A stretch of 64,000 nt of DNA from Umboniibacter marinipuniceus (GTDB lineage: Bacteria > Pseudomonadota > Gammaproteobacteria > Pseudomonadales > DSM-25080), in assembly GCF_003688415.1 (NCBI RefSeq), contig NZ_REFJ01000007.1, forward strand, positions 1 through 64,000, read 5' to 3'. This document shows positions 41,005 to 55,445 of the stretch, piece by piece. Numbering within the stretch: the stretch's first letter is position 1; each line of letters opens with the position of its first letter. The position numbers and the translations under genes were made by a program. Below the pieces are notes generated by a model. It was not told the origin of the DNA. It saw only the letters and a program-made list of their open reading frames with translations, and did no database searches.

Positions 41005-42135
41005 ATGTTTACGGTCAACAGTAACTTCGACAGTGGTAACATTCATTTCGTGGGCGAATCCAACAATGAGCTTCAACTCGAGATTCGTAACGATCGTTAC
41101 TCCGAATACTTCCAGTGGTTCCACTTTTCAGTGACCGGCGAGCAGGGCTCAACCCTTCGTTGCTGTATTCGCAATGCGGGTCAAGCTGCCTACCTAGAAG
41201 GGTGGCCTGACTACCGCGTCTGCTTTAGCTACGACCGAAAGACCTGGCATCGTCTAGATGCCTCATTTGACGGAAGCAATCTTCGTTTTGACACCAAACT
41301 TAGCGCGAACACGATTTGGTTCGCCTACTTCGAGCCCTTCTCCTATGAGCAACATCTGGCACTGATCGCCAAAGCTCAACAACATGAAGACGTCTCACAC
41401 CAAGTGCTAGGCCAAACGCTTGATGGCCGACCTATCGACCTACTGAAGATTGGCCAGGACGCGAAAAATAAGCCCGTTATCTGGGTTACCGCTCGGCAAC
41501 ACCCTGGCGAAAGTATGGCTGAACACCTCATTGAAGGGTTACTCGACGAATTACTCGGGCAGTCTGAGCTCGCCACGCAACTGCGGGCTCAAGCCGTATT
41601 CTATATTGTCCCAAATATGAATCCAGACGGCAGCGTTCGCGGTCATTTAAGAACGAATGCGGCGGGGATGAACCTGAATCGAGAATGGCAGTCTCCATCA
41701 ATCGAGAAGAGCCCCGAGGTTTTTTGGGTGCGCGCCAAAATGCTTGCCGAAGGCGGCGACATGTTCCTCGATATTCACGGAGACGAAGCCCTTCCCTACA
41801 ACTTCGTTGCCGCAAGTGAAGGCGTCGCGAACTACTCACCTTATATGGCTAAACTTGAAAACGCTTTCCGCGATAGTTTACTCAAGCGCAGTGACCAATT
41901 TCAGGTTCAATATGGCTATGACGTGGACGCGCCTGGCGAGGCGAATCATACCGTGGGAAGCAACTGGATGGGCAATCAGTTTAAAACGCTAGCGCTCACC
42001 CTAGAAATGCCGTTCAAAGACAATGCTAATGCCCCCTCGCCGGAGTTCGGTTGGAACGGCGACCGCAGTCAACAACTGGGCAAAGACATGCTGGCAACCG
42101 TGCTAGATCTCTTGCCGCTTATAGAACGAGGTTAA
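41005..42135 (+). CDS. M14-family zinc carboxypeptidase, cytosolic type
   Basis: Residues of about 1-115 form the beta-sandwich N-domain typical of cytosolic carboxypeptidases (AGBL/CCP-like, M14D). The catalytic domain follows. Zinc ligands His166 and Glu169 lie in RQHPGES and the third, His258, in DIHGDE. The substrate-arginine region [15 protein letters not shown] and the catalytic Glu in LTLEMPF are present. No signal peptide, so it acts in the cytoplasm, probably trimming C-terminal residues of peptides or proteins. It is 376 aa, and it is followed by YajQ after 2 bp, making an operon. Confidence 0.88.
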
Positions 42136-46216: not shown

Positions 46217-46708
46217 TTATCGAGAGAGCGGGTTTGCCACCAGTTCCGCTAGCGGATAACCGCTGAAGCGCTTACTTTCGCGCATAATCACATGCGTAGA
46301 GATGTTATTAATTTCAGGGCAACGATCAATTAACTGACTGGTTAACTCCATATACCTCGTCATATTCGCGCAGGCAAAACGGATGATAAAATCACAGTTA
46401 CCACTCACCGTGTAGGCGTCCAAAGCCTCTGCTGTTGCAGCAACTTGCTCCTCCAGCACTCTAAAGGTATCTGGCGAATGATTACTGAGACTCACCGAAG
46501 CAATACATTGCACCGGGGAGCAGAGTCGCTCCACGTCGACTTCGGCACTAAAGGACTTTATCCACCCCTCTGCCTGAAGGCGTTGAAAGCGCTGATGACA
46601 GGCACTAGGCGACAAATTAACAAGCTCCGCTAGCTCTTTATTCGCCAAGCGACCATTAGCCTGTATGAGGCTGAGTATACGCAGATCTAGCCGATCTAAC
46701 ATTGCCAC
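46217..46708 (-). CDS. Lrp/AsnC-family transcriptional regulator
   Basis: A 163-aa Lrp-type regulator with N-terminal HTH (LDLRILSLIQANGRLANKELAELVNLSPSAC) and C-terminal RAM domain. It starts 9 bp after the aminotransferase stop, so the two share a transcript. By analogy with other Lrp genes next to amino-acid catabolic enzymes, it likely senses an amino acid or polyamine degraded by the aminotransferase. It could also influence the divergent AST operon; that is inference. Confidence 0.93.
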   Translation of the reverse strand: MAMLDRLDLRILSLIQANGRLANKELAELVNLSPSACHQRFQRLQAEGWIKSFSAEVDVERLCSPVQCIASVSLSNHSPDTFRVLEEQVAATAEALDAYTVSGNCDFIIRFACANMTRYMELTSQLIDRCPEINNISTHVIMRESKRFSGYPLAELVANPLSR

Positions 46709-46717
46709 ATCCTCGCC

Positions 46718-48091
46718 TTAATTGCCGAATGTTACCGAATCGATGGCTTGCTTGAGCACCGACACCAACTGATCGACTTCCTCGCGGGTAATGACCAGCG
46801 GAGGGGAAATAGCAATGGTTCCTACACTTGGCAGTGGACGAACAATTACGCCCGCTTCGCGACAGGCATTGGCTACTTTCAACGGCCACTTCTCAGCAGG
46901 GTCCGGAAGCAACTTGCTCGCTTTATTCGCCACTAATTGTACACCGGCGATAAGACCACGCCCGCGGATTTCCGCAACGTGAGGATGATCACCAATTTCG
47001 GCTTGTAGCTGCTCGTGTAAGTAACGGCCAGTCTCACCTGCTAGCTCAACTAAGCCTTCTTTCTCAATAATTTCAAGATTAGCCAGAGCGACGGCAGCAC
47101 CAATTGGGTGACCACTGTACGTGTATCCGTGAGAGAAGGCGCCCAATTTCTCGGAGCCTAACTTCATTACTTCCCAAATATCTTGCGTCATAAACACGGC
47201 AGACATTGGGAAATAGCCACTGGTTAAACCCTTTGCGGTGGCCATGAAGTCAGGTTTGATATCAAGTACCTGCGATCCAAACCACTTGCCCAAACGACCA
47301 TATCCGCAGACCACTTCGTCAGCAACTAAGAGAATATCATTTGCCTTCAATAGCGATTGCAGTTTTGGGTAATAACCCTTTGGAGGTTCGATAACCCCAC
47401 CCGCTGCGTGAATAGGTTCGGCAAAGAACGCGCCAATATTCTCGGCGCCTTCTCGTTCAATGAGCTGTGCTACTTCGTCAATTAGGCGATCACAAAACTG
47501 CTCCTCGGTCTCACCCGCTTTCCCTCTGGTATAGAAGTGCGGACACTCTGTACGCAATACGAAATCAAGCGGCAGCGGGAACTCCTTATGGAAGCCACCT
47601 AGACCAGTTAGCGACGCCGTTGAGATTGAGGTGCCATGGTAACCCTGCTCTCTAGCAATCATCTTGGTCTTGCTATGCTGCCCTTTTAACGCGAAGTAGT
47701 GCCACACCAATTTAATAATCGTATCGTTAGCATCACTGCCGGAACTCCCAAAAAAGATTTTCGTCATCTGCTCGGGAGCTTTACTGAGCAGTTTCTCAGC
47801 TAAAGCAACCTGCCAAGGGTTCGAGGCGTTTGAAAACGTATGATAGTAACTAATTTGCTGAGCTGCTTGCTGCATAGCGTCCGCTAATTCTTTGCGTCCG
47901 TAACCCACATTAACGCACCACAGACCACCCACCGCATCGAGGAGCTCTCGTCCATTCGCATCCGTGACCGTTGAGCCCTTAGCCGACGTAATCATATCTG
48001 GACCGTTGGCCAATAATGCCGTAATTGAAGAAGCTGGGTGTAATAGAACCTCTGCATCCTTAGCCATCAAGCTCGCCATATTTTCTTTCAT
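46718..48091 (-). CDS. class-III PLP aminotransferase (omega-amino acid/polyamine:pyruvate type)
   Basis: This 457-aa fold-type I aminotransferase has the subgroup-II motif LLDAVGGLWCVNVGYGRKEL, which is characteristic of omega-amino acid:pyruvate and polyamine (SpuC-like) transaminases. The PLP-phosphate motif GSSGSDAND, the aspartate in LLVADEVVCGYGRLG and the Schiff-base lysine in MATAKGLTSGY are intact. It differs from the shorter ArgD/AstC group (about 400 aa). It is divergent from the M20-astA-astD-astB operon with a 245-bp spacer. It may serve the AstC step (succinylornithine transamination) or deaminate putrescine-like amines. Confidence 0.88.
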   Translation of the reverse strand: MKENMASLMAKDAEVLLHPASSITALLANGPDMITSAKGSTVTDANGRELLDAVGGLWCVNVGYGRKELADAMQQAAQQISYYHTFSNASNPWQVALAEKLLSKAPEQMTKIFFGSSGSDANDTIIKLVWHYFALKGQHSKTKMIAREQGYHGTSISTASLTGLGGFHKEFPLPLDFVLRTECPHFYTRGKAGETEEQFCDRLIDEVAQLIEREGAENIGAFFAEPIHAAGGVIEPPKGYYPKLQSLLKANDILLVADEVVCGYGRLGKWFGSQVLDIKPDFMATAKGLTSGYFPMSAVFMTQDIWEVMKLGSEKLGAFSHGYTYSGHPIGAAVALANLEIIEKEGLVELAGETGRYLHEQLQAEIGDHPHVAEIRGRGLIAGVQLVANKASKLLPDPAEKWPLKVANACREAGVIVRPLPSVGTIAISPPLVITREEVDQLVSVLKQAIDSVTFGN

Positions 48092-48336
48092 CGTCTAATC
48101 TCCTAACAGAACACCAGTCTGGTGTTACGAATGACTGCAACAATACGAATTTTATTCAATTGTCTAGCAATCAATGGGTGTTGAAAAGTGTTGATTCACT
48201 TTTTAGCATGCTTAGATTCTGGGACATATTGCCGTTTTCTTCAACGAATTTAATTCTGTTATCAATTTCTTTTCCGCAACTATTACGTGCCATTTTGATG
48301 CAGACTAGATTTACTGATATTAGATCTGAGCAACTT

Positions 48337-49584
48337 ATGACCGAAACTGCATTACATACTACCAAATCGTCTTTAATTGCTAAGCTTCATTCAGAAGCTG
48401 ACTGGATGATAGCTGAGACACGGCGACTAGCCGAATTAAATTCTGGCACCACGAATGTCGACGGTCTCAATTTGGTCGCGAACGAGCTAATCCAATTGTT
48501 CAGTACCTGGGCAGACCGAAGCGAGTGTCGAGCTCTTCCTGCTATTGAGTCGGTGTCGTCTGACGGGTCTATGGACCGATGGGACACTGCTCCCATGCTT
48601 ATTTTCGCTCGCAACGAGCAAGCCCCATTGCAGTTACTCTGTACGGGTCACTATGACACCGTGTTTCCGGCTCATAGTGCATTTCAAACCACTTGGGTTG
48701 AGGGTAATCACCTCCGTGGTCCAGGTGTTGCCGATATGAAAGGCGGTTTAATGGTGCTGCTCGCTACGCTCAGAGCCATTGCTGGAACACCGCTGGATTC
48801 CTTAATTGGTGTTACCGTCGCGATTTCCCCTGACGAAGAGATTGGCTCTCCTCGTTCGGCTCCAGAATTAACTAAGCTCGCGCAGAATAAGCATTTCGGA
48901 CTCACGTACGAACCAGCGTTGGCCGACGGAACCCTCGCCGGCGCACGAAAGGGCAGCGGCAACTTCAGCATGATCGTAAGAGGCCTAGCAAAGCATGCGG
49001 GTAGAGAGTTCTTCGAGGGCAAGAACGCCATCACCGCCGCAGCTAAGTTTGCCACCCAGATTGAGTCGCTCAGCAACCGCGAAACTGGCCTGACTGTAAA
49101 CATTGGCAAGATTGAAGGTGGCGGCCCAGTCAATGTGGTACCCGAACTCGCTATTGTTCGCTTTAACATTCGCGTTGATCAACCGGAAGACACTCGTATT
49201 ATCAACACGATTAACAACCTCGCAGGCGAGATCTCGGCTGAAACTGGCTGTTCGTTTGACTTACATGGCCACTTCAATCGCCCTCCGAAACCAATGACGG
49301 AAGCACAACAACAGATGTTCGAACTACTTCGAAGCTGCGGTGCTGAATTAGGCTTGGATGTGCAGTGGAAGCCAACTGGGGGCTGCTGTGAAGGTAATAA
49401 TTTGGCCGCCGCGGGATTATTGAATATCGACACCCTCGGGGTTCGAGGTGGCCTAATCCATTCCGATGAAGAGTTTGCCTGCTTAGACAGCTTTGCCGAG
49501 CGAGCACAACTGTCAGCCCTGCTTATCTGTGCCCTCGCCGAGAAGTCTATCCCAAACATAAACGCGCTACTTGGAGACGCTTAA
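48337..49584 (+). CDS. M20-family zinc amidohydrolase, carboxypeptidase G2-like
   Basis: The M20 metal motifs are complete: LLCTGHYDTVFP (H-x-D), GPGVADMKGG (bridging Asp), SPDEEIGSP (catalytic/ligand Glu pair) and TYEPAL (Glu ligand). A dimerisation-domain segment, SGNFSMIVRGLAKHAGREFFEGKNAI, resembles carboxypeptidase G2, which cleaves N-acyl-glutamate bonds. The C-terminal ligand His (LIHSDEEFA) is present. I start at the ATG at 48337 (415 aa), since the upstream 59 residues of the open frame do not fit the family. It precedes astA by 1 bp. A role in removing succinate from N-succinylglutamate (the AstE step) is an inference. Confidence 0.8.
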   Translation: MTETALHTTKSSLIAKLHSEADWMIAETRRLAELNSGTTNVDGLNLVANELIQLFSTWADRSECRALPAIESVSSDGSMDRWDTAPMLIFARNEQAPLQLLCTGHYDTVFPAHSAFQTTWVEGNHLRGPGVADMKGGLMVLLATLRAIAGTPLDSLIGVTVAISPDEEIGSPRSAPELTKLAQNKHFGLTYEPALADGTLAGARKGSGNFSMIVRGLAKHAGREFFEGKNAITAAAKFATQIESLSNRETGLTVNIGKIEGGGPVNVVPELAIVRFNIRVDQPEDTRIINTINNLAGEISAETGCSFDLHGHFNRPPKPMTEAQQQMFELLRSCGAELGLDVQWKPTGGCCEGNNLAAAGLLNIDTLGVRGGLIHSDEEFACLDSFAERAQLSALLICALAEKSIPNINALLGDA

Positions 49585-49585
49585 C

Positions 49586-50608
49586 ATGCTCGTTATTCGA
49601 CCAGCTGAACTAGCCGATGTTGAGGACTTGTATGCGCTGGCACTCAAAGCGGGCAAGGGTCTCACCTCACTGCCGCCAGACCGCGAAACCTTAGCTGCTA
49701 AAGTCACCCTCTCAACGGAAAGCTTTGCGCGATCGCAAAACCATGTGGACGATTATTTTTTGCTGGTCATGTCTGACACGGCCAAGTCTCGGGTAGTTGG
49801 AACGGCCGCCGTTTATGGTACCACCGGAACGCGCCAAGCTTTTTACGCCTATCGACTCATGTCCGTTACCCACCACTCCCACTCGCTGGACAAGCAAATT
49901 CGTGCGGAGATGCTTCACCTCAGCAACGATTACACCGATTGCGCAGAGGTCGGCACGCTGTTCCTCGATCCTGACTATCGTGGCAACGGGCACTGGCTGT
50001 CGCGCTCCCGTTACTTGCTGATGGGCCAGCACTCGCACCGCTTCCAACCCTATGTTATTGCGGAAATGCGCGGCTGGCTAAACGAGCAGGGAATCAGCCC
50101 GTTTTGGGAGGCGATAGGACGGCAGTTTTTCGACATGAGCTTCGAAGAGGCGGATCGACTCTGTGGCATCGGCTCCAACCAATTTATTACCGAATTAATG
50201 CCTAAACATCCCATCTACACCTGCATGTTAGCCGATTCAGCCCAACGAGTACTCGGCAAGCCTCACGTTGATACCGTTCGAGCCGTGGAACTACTCGAGG
50301 CCGAGGGTTTTGAATACGACAAGATGATCGACATATTCGATGGAGGGCCAATTCTCCGCGCGAAGGTCGCGAATCTTCATAGTGTCAAGGCAACGGCGCA
50401 TCGCAAGGTGCGCGTAGACGCTGAATTAGACGATTCATCAAAGCCTATTTATATGCTCGCCAACAGTTCGCTGGAGAGCTTTCGGGTTGTGTGCGAACCT
50501 GCTGTCTTGCAAGACAGCACCGCAACCATCACGCCAAGCATCGCCACACAACTTAACATCGCCAGTGGTGACGAAATTCACTTGCTTGATACAGGTAAGA
50601 CCTCATGA
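49586..50608 (+). CDS. astA: arginine N-succinyltransferase
   Basis: AstA transfers succinyl from succinyl-CoA to the alpha-amino group of arginine, the first step of the AST pathway. The 340-aa sequence begins with the family pattern VIRPAELADVEDLYALALKAGKGLTSLP. It contains the conserved VGTLFLDPDYRGNGHWLSRSRYLLM and the FWEAIGRQFFDMSFEEADRLCG region. The ATG at 49586 follows the M20 stop by 1 bp. The astD ATG overlaps its stop by four bases, so translation is coupled. Confidence 0.96.
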   Translation: MLVIRPAELADVEDLYALALKAGKGLTSLPPDRETLAAKVTLSTESFARSQNHVDDYFLLVMSDTAKSRVVGTAAVYGTTGTRQAFYAYRLMSVTHHSHSLDKQIRAEMLHLSNDYTDCAEVGTLFLDPDYRGNGHWLSRSRYLLMGQHSHRFQPYVIAEMRGWLNEQGISPFWEAIGRQFFDMSFEEADRLCGIGSNQFITELMPKHPIYTCMLADSAQRVLGKPHVDTVRAVELLEAEGFEYDKMIDIFDGGPILRAKVANLHSVKATAHRKVRVDAELDDSSKPIYMLANSSLESFRVVCEPAVLQDSTATITPSIATQLNIASGDEIHLLDTGKTS

Positions 50609-52053
50609 GTAATTTTATCAATGGTACATGGGTTGCCGCCGGCGGCCCCGAAATGCGTTCCTACAGTCCTTGCGAAACCAACCTCATTTGGCTCGGTAAC
50701 GAGTCTACTGAGGGCGATGTCAACGAGGCAATCAGCGGCGCCCGCCGAGCATTCAGTGAGTGGTCCGCCAAAACACTCGATCAACGGATCACGGTACTCG
50801 AGGCGTTCGCTAGTGAGCTCGCGTCGCGCCGGAGTGAGCTCGCCACCACCATCCATTGTGAAACTGGAAAACCAGAGTGGGAAGCGGATACCGAAGTGAC
50901 CGCAATGATCAATAAGGTTGCCATCAGTATTCGCGCCTATCATGAGCGAACTGGTCATTCTCGAAACGACAACCTGGAGCTTCAGCATCGTGCTCACGGG
51001 GTGATGGCAGTATTTGGGCCGTACAATTTCCCAGGGCATCTCCCTAATGGTCACATTGTGCCCGCACTTTTGGCTGGGAATACGGTGGTCTTCAAGCCCA
51101 GTGAACAAACACCTACCGTTGCCGAACTCACGATGAAATGCTGGCAAGCAGCAGGGCTGCCTGACGGGGTTATCAATTTGGTTAATGGTGCAAAACAGAC
51201 CGGCGTCGCATTAGTGAATGGCAATATCGATGGCGTACTCTTCACCGGTTCATCACTAACGGGGACTGCAATACATCGCAGCCTTGGTGGCCGACCCGAG
51301 GTCATAGCGGCGCTAGAAATGGGCGGTAACAACGCCATCATTGTTTCGCCCAACAGCGATCCCTCTCACGCAGCAGAACTGGTTCTTCAGAGTGCCTTCC
51401 TCTCCGCAGGGCAGCGTTGTACCTGCGCCAACCGCCTAATTCTGGTTGAGAGTGCGTCGAACAAGGCGTTTATAGATTGCTTAGTTGCGCTCATGCATCG
51501 GGTGATCGTTGATGGTGCTGAAGACCAAAGTGCCGAGGCATTTATGGGACCTGTTATTAATCGAACAACGGCAGAGAGCTTAATCAGCGCACAAGCGGCG
51601 CTCGTTGACGCCGGCGCCACTGCGCTGCGAACTATGGCGCAGCTAGACGAATTTGGGGTTCGCCTCAGCCCCGGACTCATTGACGTAACCCAGGTTGAAA
51701 ACGTACCCGACGAAGAGCTTTTCGGCCCATTGCTCCAGCTTACACGCGTAAGTTCGATGGATGATGCTATTAGCGAAGCCAACCGAACGCGTTATGGACT
51801 AGCCGCCGGTTTAGTTTCCAACAACGAGCTGGAGCAACACCTCTTCCTTACTCACATCCGAGCGGGCGTCACAAGCATCAACGCACCTACAGCTGGCGCG
51901 TCCAGCTCGCTGCCCTTTGGCGGCGTGGGCGCAAGCGGCAACCACCGCCCTAGCGCTTACTACGCTGCCGATTATGCCGCCTGGCCACAGGCAACCATGC
52001 ACGGTGCAGCAAGCCGCTCACAATCCTTAATTGCACGAGGTTTAGCGAAATGA
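50605..52053 (+). CDS. astD: N-succinylglutamate 5-semialdehyde dehydrogenase
   Basis: AstD oxidises succinylglutamate semialdehyde to succinylglutamate with NAD+. It is a 482-aa ALDH with the diagnostic PYNFPGHLPNGHIVPALLAGN, the general-base Glu in LEMGGNNAI and the catalytic Cys in GQRCTCANR. It overlaps astA by 4 bases and astB by 4 bases (ATGA), giving tight translational coupling within the AST operon. Confidence 0.96.
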   Translation: MSNFINGTWVAAGGPEMRSYSPCETNLIWLGNESTEGDVNEAISGARRAFSEWSAKTLDQRITVLEAFASELASRRSELATTIHCETGKPEWEADTEVTAMINKVAISIRAYHERTGHSRNDNLELQHRAHGVMAVFGPYNFPGHLPNGHIVPALLAGNTVVFKPSEQTPTVAELTMKCWQAAGLPDGVINLVNGAKQTGVALVNGNIDGVLFTGSSLTGTAIHRSLGGRPEVIAALEMGGNNAIIVSPNSDPSHAAELVLQSAFLSAGQRCTCANRLILVESASNKAFIDCLVALMHRVIVDGAEDQSAEAFMGPVINRTTAESLISAQAALVDAGATALRTMAQLDEFGVRLSPGLIDVTQVENVPDEELFGPLLQLTRVSSMDDAISEANRTRYGLAAGLVSNNELEQHLFLTHIRAGVTSINAPTAGASSSLPFGGVGASGNHRPSAYYAADYAAWPQATMHGAASRSQSLIARGLAK

Positions 52054-53372
52054 CTTTTCACGAAATGAATTTTGACGGACTTATTGGGCCCACTCACAAT
52101 TACAGCGGCCTCGCGGTAGGAAACTTGGCGTCGGCGAAGAACGCCAAGAACACGTCATTCCCCAGAGAGGCGGCGCTTCAAGGTATTGAAAAAATGCGTA
52201 CACTAGTCCGTAAGGGCTATAAGCAGGGCTTCCTACTACCTAATGCTCGCCCCGACCTCAATGTGTTGCGGAACTTAGGATTCACCGGCACCAACGCTCA
52301 GATTATAAACAAAGCCGCTAAACAGGCTCCCGAGCTGCTTAGTATGGTTTACAGCGCTTCGAGTATGTGGGCGGCGAATGCAGCAACCGTTACGCCTTCA
52401 CTGGATTCAAAAGATGGCAAGGTGCACTTCACGCCCGCAAACCTTTTAACCACCGCTCACCGTGCCATTGAATACCCTCAGACGGAAAGAATTTTGAAGG
52501 CGGTGTTTAACAATACCAAGTACTTCAAAGTACACTCAGCGTTGTATGGCCAGAGCGAGTTTGCCGATGAGGGTGCCGCCAATCATACTCGCCTTGGTAG
52601 TTCGTATCAGGATGCCGGTGTGGGCTTGTTTGTTTATGGCCGCACAGGTCAATCGAACTTAACGCGCTTCCCGGCGCGTCAAACTCTCAAAGCCAGCCAA
52701 GCTGTGGCTCGCGCTCACGAGACTCGCGATGCGCTATTCCTCCAACAGAGCCCTGTCGCTATTGACGCAGGCGCATTCCACAATGACGTCGTTGCTGTTG
52801 GTAACGGGCCAGCCCTATTCTTCCATGAAGACGCGTTTGTAGCGTCGCAGCAAGCAGCCGTCTTTGCCGAGCTGGCTGAACGAATGCCCTTCAAAGCTAT
52901 TTGCGTGTCGCGAGACGATGTCTCCCTCGCGGATGCGATCAGCAGCTATTTATTTAATAGCCAGCTGCTCGCTAGCCCCGATGGTTCAACCCATGAGATG
53001 CACCTCATTGCGCCCACCGAGTGCCGAGACAATCAGGCGGTATTTGCCTACCTCGAGCGCCTCATCGCCGATGATTCACAACCTATTCGCACCGTTACTT
53101 ATGTAGACGTGCGGCAATCTATGAGCAATGGTGGCGGCCCCGCTTGTCTGCGTCTGCGGGTATTGATGAGCAATGAGGAAATGGCTGCCATCAACCCCAA
53201 TTTTATTGCGACGGAAGCTCAACTGGATGTGTTAAGCGGATGGGTCAACCAGCATTACCGTGACGAACTCTCTCCGGCAGACCTAGCCGACCCTCAACTG
53301 ATGACCGAGAGCTATGATGCGTTCACGGATCTCGAAGAGGTATTAAACTGTGAAGGAGTCTATCGGCTCTAG
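52050..53372 (+). CDS. astB: N-succinylarginine dihydrolase
   Basis: AstB hydrolyses N2-succinylarginine to succinylornithine, CO2 and two ammonia, using a guanidine-modifying (pentein) fold. The family start FDGLIGPTHNYSGLAVGNLASAKN is clear. The catalytic His in GAFHNDVVAVGNG and the Cys in SNGGGPACLRLRV are both present. The length of 440 aa is standard. It is the last gene of the operon. No astC- or astE-named gene follows. Confidence 0.97.
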   Translation: MTFHEMNFDGLIGPTHNYSGLAVGNLASAKNAKNTSFPREAALQGIEKMRTLVRKGYKQGFLLPNARPDLNVLRNLGFTGTNAQIINKAAKQAPELLSMVYSASSMWAANAATVTPSLDSKDGKVHFTPANLLTTAHRAIEYPQTERILKAVFNNTKYFKVHSALYGQSEFADEGAANHTRLGSSYQDAGVGLFVYGRTGQSNLTRFPARQTLKASQAVARAHETRDALFLQQSPVAIDAGAFHNDVVAVGNGPALFFHEDAFVASQQAAVFAELAERMPFKAICVSRDDVSLADAISSYLFNSQLLASPDGSTHEMHLIAPTECRDNQAVFAYLERLIADDSQPIRTVTYVDVRQSMSNGGGPACLRLRVLMSNEEMAAINPNFIATEAQLDVLSGWVNQHYRDELSPADLADPQLMTESYDAFTDLEEVLNCEGVYRL

Positions 53373-53557
53373 GTTTAGCGCGGAGCCGAGACGTGAGACC
53401 AACAAAGCGTGACACAGCTCTCATTTGCTCAAATTTAAGACAATCGCCTAAGTAACTTCCACTATAGTTGACGTGTCAGCAAGATAACTCATTACAAAGC
53501 TGACCATCAGCTAAAGGGACTTTTAGTTGGTGTTCCACAACCCAAAAGGTATTGTCT

Positions 53558-54688
53558 ATGTATAAAAAACTACTTGCTTCAGCTGTTCTTGCAGCTATTG
53601 GTGCGCAAGCTTCTGCAGAAGCGCCTACCTTCTCCATGAGCGATGAAGTCGCTAATGTCCAGAACCGCTGTATCGTCCAGTTTAATGACTCAGTAGCGGC
53701 AAACAAAGTAACTGGCTTGGCGAACGCTATGGCTCGACGGGGCAACGCGTCGGTTCGTCATGTCTATGCAAACTCTATCAAAGGTTTTACGGTTAATATG
53801 CCGTGTCACGCCGCAGAGCGCGCATTCGGTGGCGATGCTGAAGTGGCTAGCCTACACCCAGATGGCGTTGTCTCAGCCTCACGTGGTAAGCCAGGTGGCG
53901 GCGGCGGAACTACTGGTCAAGTTGTTCCCTGGAGTGTTACCCGAGTGGGCGGAGCCGTTGATGGCACTGGCTATACGGCCTGGGTAGTCGATTCTGGCAT
54001 TGACCTTGATCATGCTGACCTCAACATCGACGCCGCTCGTGGCTTTAGCTCTATTTGTAAAGGTTCAACGTGCTCAATGGATGACGACAACGGCCATGGC
54101 ACACACGTTGCTGGAACGATTGCTGCACTGGATAACGACCAAGATGTGATTGGTGTCGCGGCGGGTGCCACAGTAGTACCAGTTCGCGTTCTCGATCGTC
54201 GTGGTAGTGGCTCATGGTCCGGTGTTATTGCTGGTGTCGACCACGTTGCTGCCAACGCTCAGCCAGGTGATTGCGTTAATATGAGCCTCGGTGGCGGTGT
54301 TACACAGGCGCTTGATGATGCCGTTATCGCAGCAGCTCAGCAGTCAGGAGCTTTCTTTGTTCTAGCCGCCGGTAACGATGGTGACGATGCAAACAATCAC
54401 TCTCCAGCTCGAGCAAACGGTAACAACGTTTACACCATTTCAGCAACAGACATCAATGATAATTTGGCGTCTTGGTCTAACTTTGGCAACCCGCCGGTAG
54501 ACTACGCTGCTCCTGGTGTAAACATCTTATCGTTGGGCAAAGGTGGTGGTACCGCAACGATGTCGGGTACTTCAATGGCCGCACCAGCTGCCTGCGCAGT
54601 GATCATGATGCGTAACGGCAATCCATCAACTAGTGGTTTCGCTGGTAACGACACCGATGGTACGCCTGATCCAATCGTGTCACTATAA
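53558..54688 (+). CDS. secreted S8 subtilisin-like serine protease
   Basis: A signal peptide (about 1-22) is followed by an I9-like propeptide (about 36-105), then a flexible Gly-rich linker and the S8 domain. The catalytic triad is Asp145 (WVVDSGID), His180 (GHGTHVAGT) and Ser339 (SGTSMAAP), with oxyanion Asn273 (AAGND). ATG at 53558 is preceded by AAAGGT; the TTG two codons upstream is less likely. The length of 376 aa is compact for the family, with no C-terminal prodomain. It is expected to be exported and autoprocessed to digest external protein. Confidence 0.92.
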   Translation: MYKKLLASAVLAAIGAQASAEAPTFSMSDEVANVQNRCIVQFNDSVAANKVTGLANAMARRGNASVRHVYANSIKGFTVNMPCHAAERAFGGDAEVASLHPDGVVSASRGKPGGGGGTTGQVVPWSVTRVGGAVDGTGYTAWVVDSGIDLDHADLNIDAARGFSSICKGSTCSMDDDNGHGTHVAGTIAALDNDQDVIGVAAGATVVPVRVLDRRGSGSWSGVIAGVDHVAANAQPGDCVNMSLGGGVTQALDDAVIAAAQQSGAFFVLAAGNDGDDANNHSPARANGNNVYTISATDINDNLASWSNFGNPPVDYAAPGVNILSLGKGGGTATMSGTSMAAPAACAVIMMRNGNPSTSGFAGNDTDGTPDPIVSL

Positions 54689-54715: not shown

Positions 54716-54737
54716 GGGGGGCATGAGCCCCCCTATT
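54716..54737 (+). terminator. GC-rich hairpin overlapping the next gene's start
   Basis: GGGGGGC-ATGA-GCCCCCC is a perfect 7-bp GC stem followed by TATTATT. It lies 27 bases after the subtilase stop. The loop contains the ATG of one possible start of the next gene, so the hairpin could also control its translation. Confidence 0.55.
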
Positions 54738-55445
54738 ATTATGACTGAACATTTTATTACCAAGTTTCAAAATCTACTCTCACCTGAAGAGTGTGCTGAC
54801 GTCATTACATTATTTGAAGGATCTTCGGCGCATCACCCTGGACGAACAGGCAGCGGGGTTGATCCGAGCAAGAAGAATAGCTTGGATTTAAATATCACCA
54901 AGCTCGAAGCGTGGAAGCCGTATAGGCAAGTTATCGAGCAACGAGTTATGGCAGCCTTGGCGAACTATGTGCGAAGTTATCCACACCTAGTGACTGGCGC
55001 GGTCGCTCCTTCAATTATTGATCCTCAGACATCTCAGCCTCGATCAATTACGGCTTCCGAGCTCACTGCACTCAACGATCAGACGCTCAGCCAGATAGTT
55101 CACAAGATTTTTCGCCTAGACGGATTTAACATGCAACGTTATTCACCCCAGGTTGGCGGCTACCACCACTGGCATAGTGAGCAATTTCCTCACCCGAACG
55201 ACAGTGCTCAAAGATCACTCCATCGCGTGTTGCTTGTGCTGATTTACTTGAATGACGTAACTGACGGTGGTGCAACCGAGTTCATTCATCAGCAAGTAGC
55301 CATTCAGCCCGAAGCTGGCTCGCTACTGTTGGCCCCCTGTGGCTTTACCCATACACATCGAGGTCTTCGTTCGGCAACACAAACCAAGTATGTACTGGCC
55401 TCCTGGGTGATGTACCAACCTGCCGAACTGCTCTACGCTTCGTAA
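54723..55445 (+). CDS. 2OG-Fe(II) oxygenase (prolyl-4-hydroxylase-like)
   Basis: This 240-aa protein is a double-stranded beta-helix dioxygenase that uses Fe(II) and 2-oxoglutarate, close to the prolyl 4-hydroxylase group. The metal pair is His151 and Glu153 in HHWHSEQ (Glu instead of the common Asp). The distal His is His212 in THTHRG, and Lys222 in the following TKYVLASW region should bind 2-oxoglutarate. Two starts are possible. The ATG at 54723 lies in a hairpin loop after a purine-rich GGGGGG, and the ATG at 54741 begins the family-like MTEHFITKF but has no ribosome site. The substrate is unknown. Confidence 0.8.
   Translation: MSPPIIMTEHFITKFQNLLSPEECADVITLFEGSSAHHPGRTGSGVDPSKKNSLDLNITKLEAWKPYRQVIEQRVMAALANYVRSYPHLVTGAVAPSIIDPQTSQPRSITASELTALNDQTLSQIVHKIFRLDGFNMQRYSPQVGGYHHWHSEQFPHPNDSAQRSLHRVLLVLIYLNDVTDGGATEFIHQQVAIQPEAGSLLLAPCGFTHTHRGLRSATQTKYVLASWVMYQPAELLYAS

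Follow-up and report, generated by a model that had tools for sequence, protein, structure and literature searches.

A carboxypeptidase-G2-like M20 hydrolase predicted to take the place of AstE in the arginine succinyltransferase pathway of Umboniibacter marinipuniceus

Which enzyme completes the arginine succinyltransferase (AST) pathway when the desuccinylase AstE is missing? The question is raised by a gene cluster of Umboniibacter marinipuniceus in the 64,000-nucleotide stretch of contig NZ_REFJ01000007.1 (assembly GCF_003688415.1) that was analysed here as a whole and is called the window, in which the genes astA, astD and astB follow a gene for a carboxypeptidase-G2-like M20 hydrolase. 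An earlier note on this DNA had proposed that the M20 enzyme could replace AstE and that a divergently encoded class-III aminotransferase could replace AstC. The AstE half of this proposal is strongly supported by co-occurrence, mutual exclusion, operon position and conserved residues, whereas the AstC half appears less likely than the use of an ArgD encoded elsewhere in the genome. From the genes present and their linkage, the mutual exclusion, the conserved residues and the predicted fold, we hold with high confidence that the M20 hydrolase performs the fifth AST step instead of AstE, with ArgD most likely performing the third.

In the proposed route, AstA would succinylate arginine (or ornithine), AstB would yield N2-succinylornithine, and a class-III aminotransferase, most likely the lone ArgD from elsewhere in the genome, would form succinylglutamate semialdehyde for oxidation by AstD. 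We infer that the M20 enzyme hydrolyses N-succinylglutamate, releasing succinate and glutamate, which would be step five.

The layout of the cluster agrees with its earlier description (Table 1). The products of astA, astD and astB, the three genes by which an AST pathway was recognised, all exceed their family cut-offs, and 4-nt overlaps at astA/astD and astD/astB bear out the coupling of these genes. The astA product scores over the cut-off of the broader TIGR03243 only and lies under those of the narrower TIGR03244 and TIGR03245, and astB is the sole PF04996 match in the whole genome. The M20 reading frame was confirmed at the head of the operon, directly 5' of astA, and its product, which contains Peptidase_M20 and M20_dimer domains, exceeds the curated cut-off of NF005602 (PRK07338), a family that carries only the name "hydrolase" in NCBIfam. 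The open frame spans 48160-49584 (+), with relatives pointing to the ATG at 48337 as the likely start; the listed start of astA is the TTG at 49571, and its first in-frame ATG, at 49586, adjoins the M20 stop at 49584. The aminotransferase and Lrp genes were both found on the minus strand, as described, and family scans detected neither a canonical AstC nor an AstE in the cluster.

A search of the whole U. marinipuniceus assembly (2.69 Mb, 16 contigs, 99.4% complete; genome G000 in our numbering) did not find AstE, the best TIGR03242 match scoring 27 bits where the cut-off is 306. This match (L002 1375-2418, contig C6) is an AstE/AspA-domain protein encoded directly 3' of a RimK-like ligase gene, RimK being assigned by sequence reading. 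It was rejected as an AstE in view of a score far under the cut-off and of the fact that such a match is not general among AstB-positive genomes. An M14 carboxypeptidase encoded some 6 kb away from the M20 gene, at window positions 41005-42135, was also rejected; it combines a cytosolic-carboxypeptidase N-terminal domain (PF18027) with Peptidase_M14 (PF00246) and has no NCBIfam match at 1e-5. The M20 protein itself gives no match to the AstE model TIGR03242 at 1e-5.

A search for AstB found 16 positives among 276 genomes of the class and 120 among 397 of the phylum; 5 are shared, which makes 131 positive genomes, of which 96 (the 16 of the class sample and 80 more) were scanned for both desuccinylase candidates. 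Forty-seven hold only an M20 protein over the NF005602 cut-off (9 among the 16 and 38 among the 80), 45 hold only a near-full-length AstE (6 and 39, respectively; 36 over the cut-off and 9 slightly below it, at 269-298 bits), none holds both and 4 hold neither (Fisher 4e-23, a statistic that ignores kinship). By family label, 14 families are of the M20 type and 17 of the AstE type, with none common to both. The 38 M20-positive genomes of the 80-genome set are G510, from the window's order, and 37 genomes of other classes, out of 40 such genomes in the set. The window's order contains both types, G000 and G510 having the M20 enzyme and G241, G320 and others having AstE. The 40 genomes of other classes are probably alphaproteobacteria; several group in the tree with Caulobacter, Brevundimonas, Sphingomonadaceae and Kordiimonas. 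The M20 protein is thus very probably the succinylglutamate desuccinylase in U. marinipuniceus and in these 37 genomes, and the same displacement is predicted across several gammaproteobacterial families.

The AstE absences are unlikely to be failures of the search, because it was sensitive enough to list remote paralogues of 20-37 bits. Among the 40 AstB-positive genomes of other classes, any TIGR03242 match was obtained in only 4, always below 32 bits. Caulobacter vibrioides is a control genome that matches NF005602 and AstB but not AstE, and is probably the one control that exceeds the NF005602 cut-off. The four genomes with neither enzyme (G023, G329, G561 and G629; L206-L209) contain astB without astA or astD in the stretches fetched; for that reason the AST route proper may not operate in them, and their AstB relatives perhaps have a different role.

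In the converse direction, an NF005602 search of a 276-genome draw from the class gave 12 genomes over the cut-off, namely 9 of the 16 AstB-positive and 3 of the 260 AstB-negative genomes. The draws used for AstB and NF005602 are apparently the same, since both contain 276 genomes with the same handles where the lists are comparable, the genomes that gave no match (240 and 239) being absent from the two listings. All three AstB-negative genomes (G018, G098 and G204) have the order M20-astA-astD, and an arginase-family gene directly follows astD in G018 and G204 (L203 and L205), which suggests that arginase supplies ornithine and that ornithine is then succinylated in AstB-less clusters. The M20 gene therefore tracks astA and astD rather than astB, as expected for an enzyme of the last, shared step.

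Linkage was assessed in named genomes by a scan with an alignment of 30 M20 proteins, which gave at least 595 pattern matches, 589 of them confirmed. The best 80 loci were kept, in stretches of up to 17 kb with up to 8 kb on each side of the M20 gene, and because the best matches were kept this sample leans to the query. Among these 80 loci, astA is present in 77, astD in 72 and astB in 69, an ArgD-like gene in 16, the window's type of aminotransferase in 7 and an Lrp relative in 6 (3 of them without the aminotransferase), and a single AstE query found AstE in none. The linkage of the M20 gene to ast genes exceeds chance, as the 77 loci with astA indicate, and in the three loci without it (L121, L171 and L195) the contig edge lies 68 to 751 bases past the M20 match. 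In 71 of the 80 loci (69 by another open-reading-frame rule) and in 45 of 49 over-cut-off loci of the occurrence-sample genomes, the M20 gene is immediately followed by astA; in alternative layouts, the M20 gene comes after astB (L164 and L184) or an ArgD-M20 pair faces the ast operon (L158 and L187). M20-ast loci occur in Caulobacter, Brevundimonas, Maricaulis, Kordiimonas, Thalassospira and an uncultured Sphingomonadaceae bacterium, and also in Oceanospirillum, Neptunomonas, Marinobacterium and Thalassolituus. Two astA homologues lie between the M20 gene and astD in L123-L125, L128-L130, L147, L149, L154, L162, L163 and L176, an arrangement that presumably resembles the aruF-aruG pair of Pseudomonas.

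The AlphaFold model of the M20 protein has a mean predicted local distance difference test score (pLDDT) of 95, and a comparison by Foldseek and VIA-align placed carboxypeptidase G2 (CPG2; 1cg2) at the top, with a Z score of 44 and a root-mean-square deviation of 3.2 over 381 residues at 23% identity. Peptidase T-like, ArgE-like and DapE (Z ~34) structures follow, among others, with carnosinase structures also present; at the level of family models, the matches to ArgE and DapE are weak. Residues H105, D133, E167, E168, E192 and H375 align to H112, D141, E175, E176, E200 and H385 of CPG2, which we take to be the metal ligands and the catalytic glutamate, and H220, N266, R279 and R315 align to H229, N275, R288 and R324 (CPG2 numbering by an offset of 22), presumably positions of the substrate site. 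All of these positions are invariant in 128 of 128 family members (48 over-cut-off loci of the occurrence-sample genomes and the 80 named loci), and the metal-ligand positions are also invariant in the 30-protein alignment; the protein is thus a predicted two-metal hydrolase. Two basic residues, R223 and K318, mark the subfamily: they are invariant in the 128 members and are found in 0/10 and 2/10 sub-cut-off paralogues, respectively. Both residues may line the substrate pocket, and N-succinylglutamate, with its three carboxylates, would suit a site of added positive charge. Some of the sub-cut-off M20 loci, which include L024 and L025, belong to AstE-positive genomes.

Several observations weigh against the assignment of the fifth step to the M20 enzyme. 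Weaker M20 relatives are common, with some match in 15 of the 16 AstB-positive genomes of the class sample, and AstE-positive genomes can contain sub-cut-off paralogues that score as high as 314 bits. A quick tree of 94 rows, from 99 chosen loci of which L029, L042, L043, L065 and L066 had no match, sets 14 weakly matching M20 rows apart from the other 80 but does not cleanly separate the stronger sub-cut-off paralogues. The raw exclusion statistic covers 96 of the 131 AstB-positive genomes and is inflated by the split between classes, and the genome-wide AstE search was directed at AstB-positive genomes and, among further M20-positive relatives, at G000. In the M20-positive genome G402, the 15 kb surrounding the M20 gene that were read contain no ast gene, and astB lies on a different contig from the M20 gene in G267, G491, G584 and G618. 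None of the sub-cut-off paralogues of AstE-positive genomes adjoins astB; the nearest lies 15.5 kb away on the same contig (G126).

The assignment of the third step depends on the choice between ArgD and the local aminotransferase. The check for canonical astC and astE genes elsewhere in the genome, suggested in the earlier note, gave a divided answer, since no AstE was found and one ArgD/AstC-type enzyme exists outside the cluster. This is the only ArgD of the genome over the TIGR00707 cut-off (C2:480837-481970, 412.6 bits); the local aminotransferase reaches 225.5 bits against the cut-off of 410. When TIGR00707 was searched at 1e-85 in 57 genomes, 53 of them of the M20 type, exactly one ArgD-type match was found in 41 of the 53, and in G132, G659, G662 and G682 the lone ArgD is encoded no more than about 2.3 kb from the M20 gene. 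Because of the one ArgD here and the single match in those 41 genomes, ArgD probably performs step three; in E. coli (ArgD) and Pseudomonas (AruC), one enzyme serves both arginine synthesis and succinylornithine transamination. The genome has four more class-III matches besides the window aminotransferase, all of 181-249 bits, of which one is presumably near antiporter-like and arginase-family-like genes and another presumably adjoins aldehyde dehydrogenase and glutamine-synthetase-like genes, as read from the sequence. The local aminotransferase exceeds the cut-off of NF004767/PRK06105 (550.9 against 517 bits), and its top raw score is to NF005684 (558 bits), under the cut-off of 687. Most of its closest relatives of solved structure carry the label of a 4-aminobutyrate, polyamine or putative aminotransferase, and pyruvate-dependent 4-aminobutyrate activity is reported for one Pseudomonas class-III enzyme (PMC4476821).

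A role of the local aminotransferase in step three is nevertheless possible, because it recurs beside ast clusters in distant lineages. The M20 desuccinylase would then be accompanied by a second displacement, in which this enzyme acts as a pyruvate-dependent N2-succinylornithine aminotransferase and ArgD is biosynthetic only. Relatives with 53-73% identity stand beside M20-ast genes in the 7 named loci noted above, from alpha- and gammaproteobacteria, divergently in 6 of them and co-directionally 3' of astB in Thalassospira, and two further genomes of the genus share the divergent layout. They never occur in one cluster with an ArgD-like gene, but with 7 and 16 loci out of 80 such exclusion arises by chance about once in five by our own estimate, 57 of the 80 clusters have neither gene, and the labels of the solved relatives and the prevalence of a single ArgD both point away from a dedicated enzyme. 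We consider this double displacement conceivable but doubtful. In an improbable alternative, the M20 protein would be an accessory enzyme, a peptidase or amidase supplying the pathway with arginine or glutamate, while an unrecognised enzyme takes off the succinyl group. The fold is common to peptidases, as the peptidase T-like and carnosinase structures illustrate, and the remote AstE/AspA-domain protein beside the RimK-like gene might hydrolyse succinylglutamate; however, this remote match is not general, being limited to the 4 of 40 genomes described above, and the absence of any genome with both M20 and AstE among the 96 would be left unexplained. Least likely is an earlier action of the M20 enzyme, such as the removal of succinate from N2-succinylornithine or N2-succinylarginine. 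The related families ArgE and DapE have N-acyl diamino acids as substrates, but such an activity would reverse the reaction of AstA and make astD useless, yet the M20 gene is co-encoded with astD, and action on succinylarginine only would be at odds with the astB-less clusters that are linked to an arginase gene.

Table 1. Coordinates of the genes and the divergent intergenic region at the ast locus (positions in the window).
Feature	Position	Strand	Basis
Lrp/AsnC-family regulator	46217..46708	-	HTH_AsnC-type + AsnC_trans_reg domains
Class-III omega-aminotransferase, NF004767/PRK06105 subfamily	46718..48091	-	NF004767 551 bits, cut-off 517
Intergenic region between the divergent genes; presumed shared control region	48092..48336	.	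gene layout alone
M20 (carboxypeptidase-G2-like) metallohydrolase, NF005602/PRK07338; predicted N-succinylglutamate desuccinylase	48337..49584	+	NF005602 509 bits, cut-off 357
astA, arginine/ornithine N-succinyltransferase	49571..50608	+	TIGR03243 383 bits, cut-off 284
astD, succinylglutamate-semialdehyde dehydrogenase	50605..52053	+	TIGR03240 642 bits, cut-off 579
astB, N-succinylarginine dihydrolase	52050..53372	+	TIGR03241 578 bits, cut-off 538

The Lrp/AsnC protein probably regulates the divergent genes. Immediately 3' of the ast operon, the window encodes a Subtilisin-family protease (53552-54688), followed by a 2OG-Fe(II) oxygenase (54723-55445).

The fifth-step assignment supplies a widespread family with an identity that can be tested, accounts for complete AST pathways without AstE and would fill a gap left by current gene annotation; predictors that demand AstE would mistakenly score M20-type genomes as unable to finish the AST pathway. 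It would also be a clear example, inside a single operon, of non-orthologous gene displacement, and a single order includes AstE-type as well as M20-type members. As a more tentative generalisation, which we regard as rather unlikely in its full form, the M20 subfamily may be a second, independently evolved succinylglutamate desuccinylase in most AstB-positive alphaproteobacteria and several gammaproteobacterial families, with a subset (this genus, Thalassolituus, Thalassospira and others) also having a displaced succinylornithine aminotransferase, so that two of the five steps are non-orthologous. No paper tying an M20 enzyme to succinylglutamate or assigning NF005602 was found in an open-access library, including passages of PMC5343134 and PMC4476821 (subscription papers, supplements, SEED, KEGG and BRENDA lay outside the search), and the main text of PMC9007349 has no mention of astE, desuccinylase or succinylglutamate.

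A comparison with known systems places these features in context. The operon shares astA, astD and astB with the E. coli and Pseudomonas clusters and differs from them in that the M20 gene is at its head, AstE was not found in the genome, and the operon has no AstC, with one ArgD elsewhere. In E. coli the AST pathway is encoded by astCADBE and in Pseudomonas by the aru genes. Both sets of names are given in the legend of Fig. 2 of PMC4476821. With carboxypeptidase G2, the M20 protein shares the fold, the metal-ligand positions and H220, N266, R279 and R315; it differs in overall sequence (23% identity), in the added R223 and K318 of the AST-linked subfamily and in its context of arginine catabolism. 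Carboxypeptidase G2 releases C-terminal glutamate, and the chemistry of DapE, the N-succinyl-diaminopimelate desuccinylase of the M20 family, is the removal of a succinyl group. DapE has the fold in common with the M20 protein, which nevertheless scores only 32-62 bits against the DapE models (cut-offs 284-381). AstE is M14-like and has another fold than M20. The M20 protein thus belongs to a different family from AstE, and the two, with the same reaction predicted for the M20 enzyme, are complementary in their occurrence.

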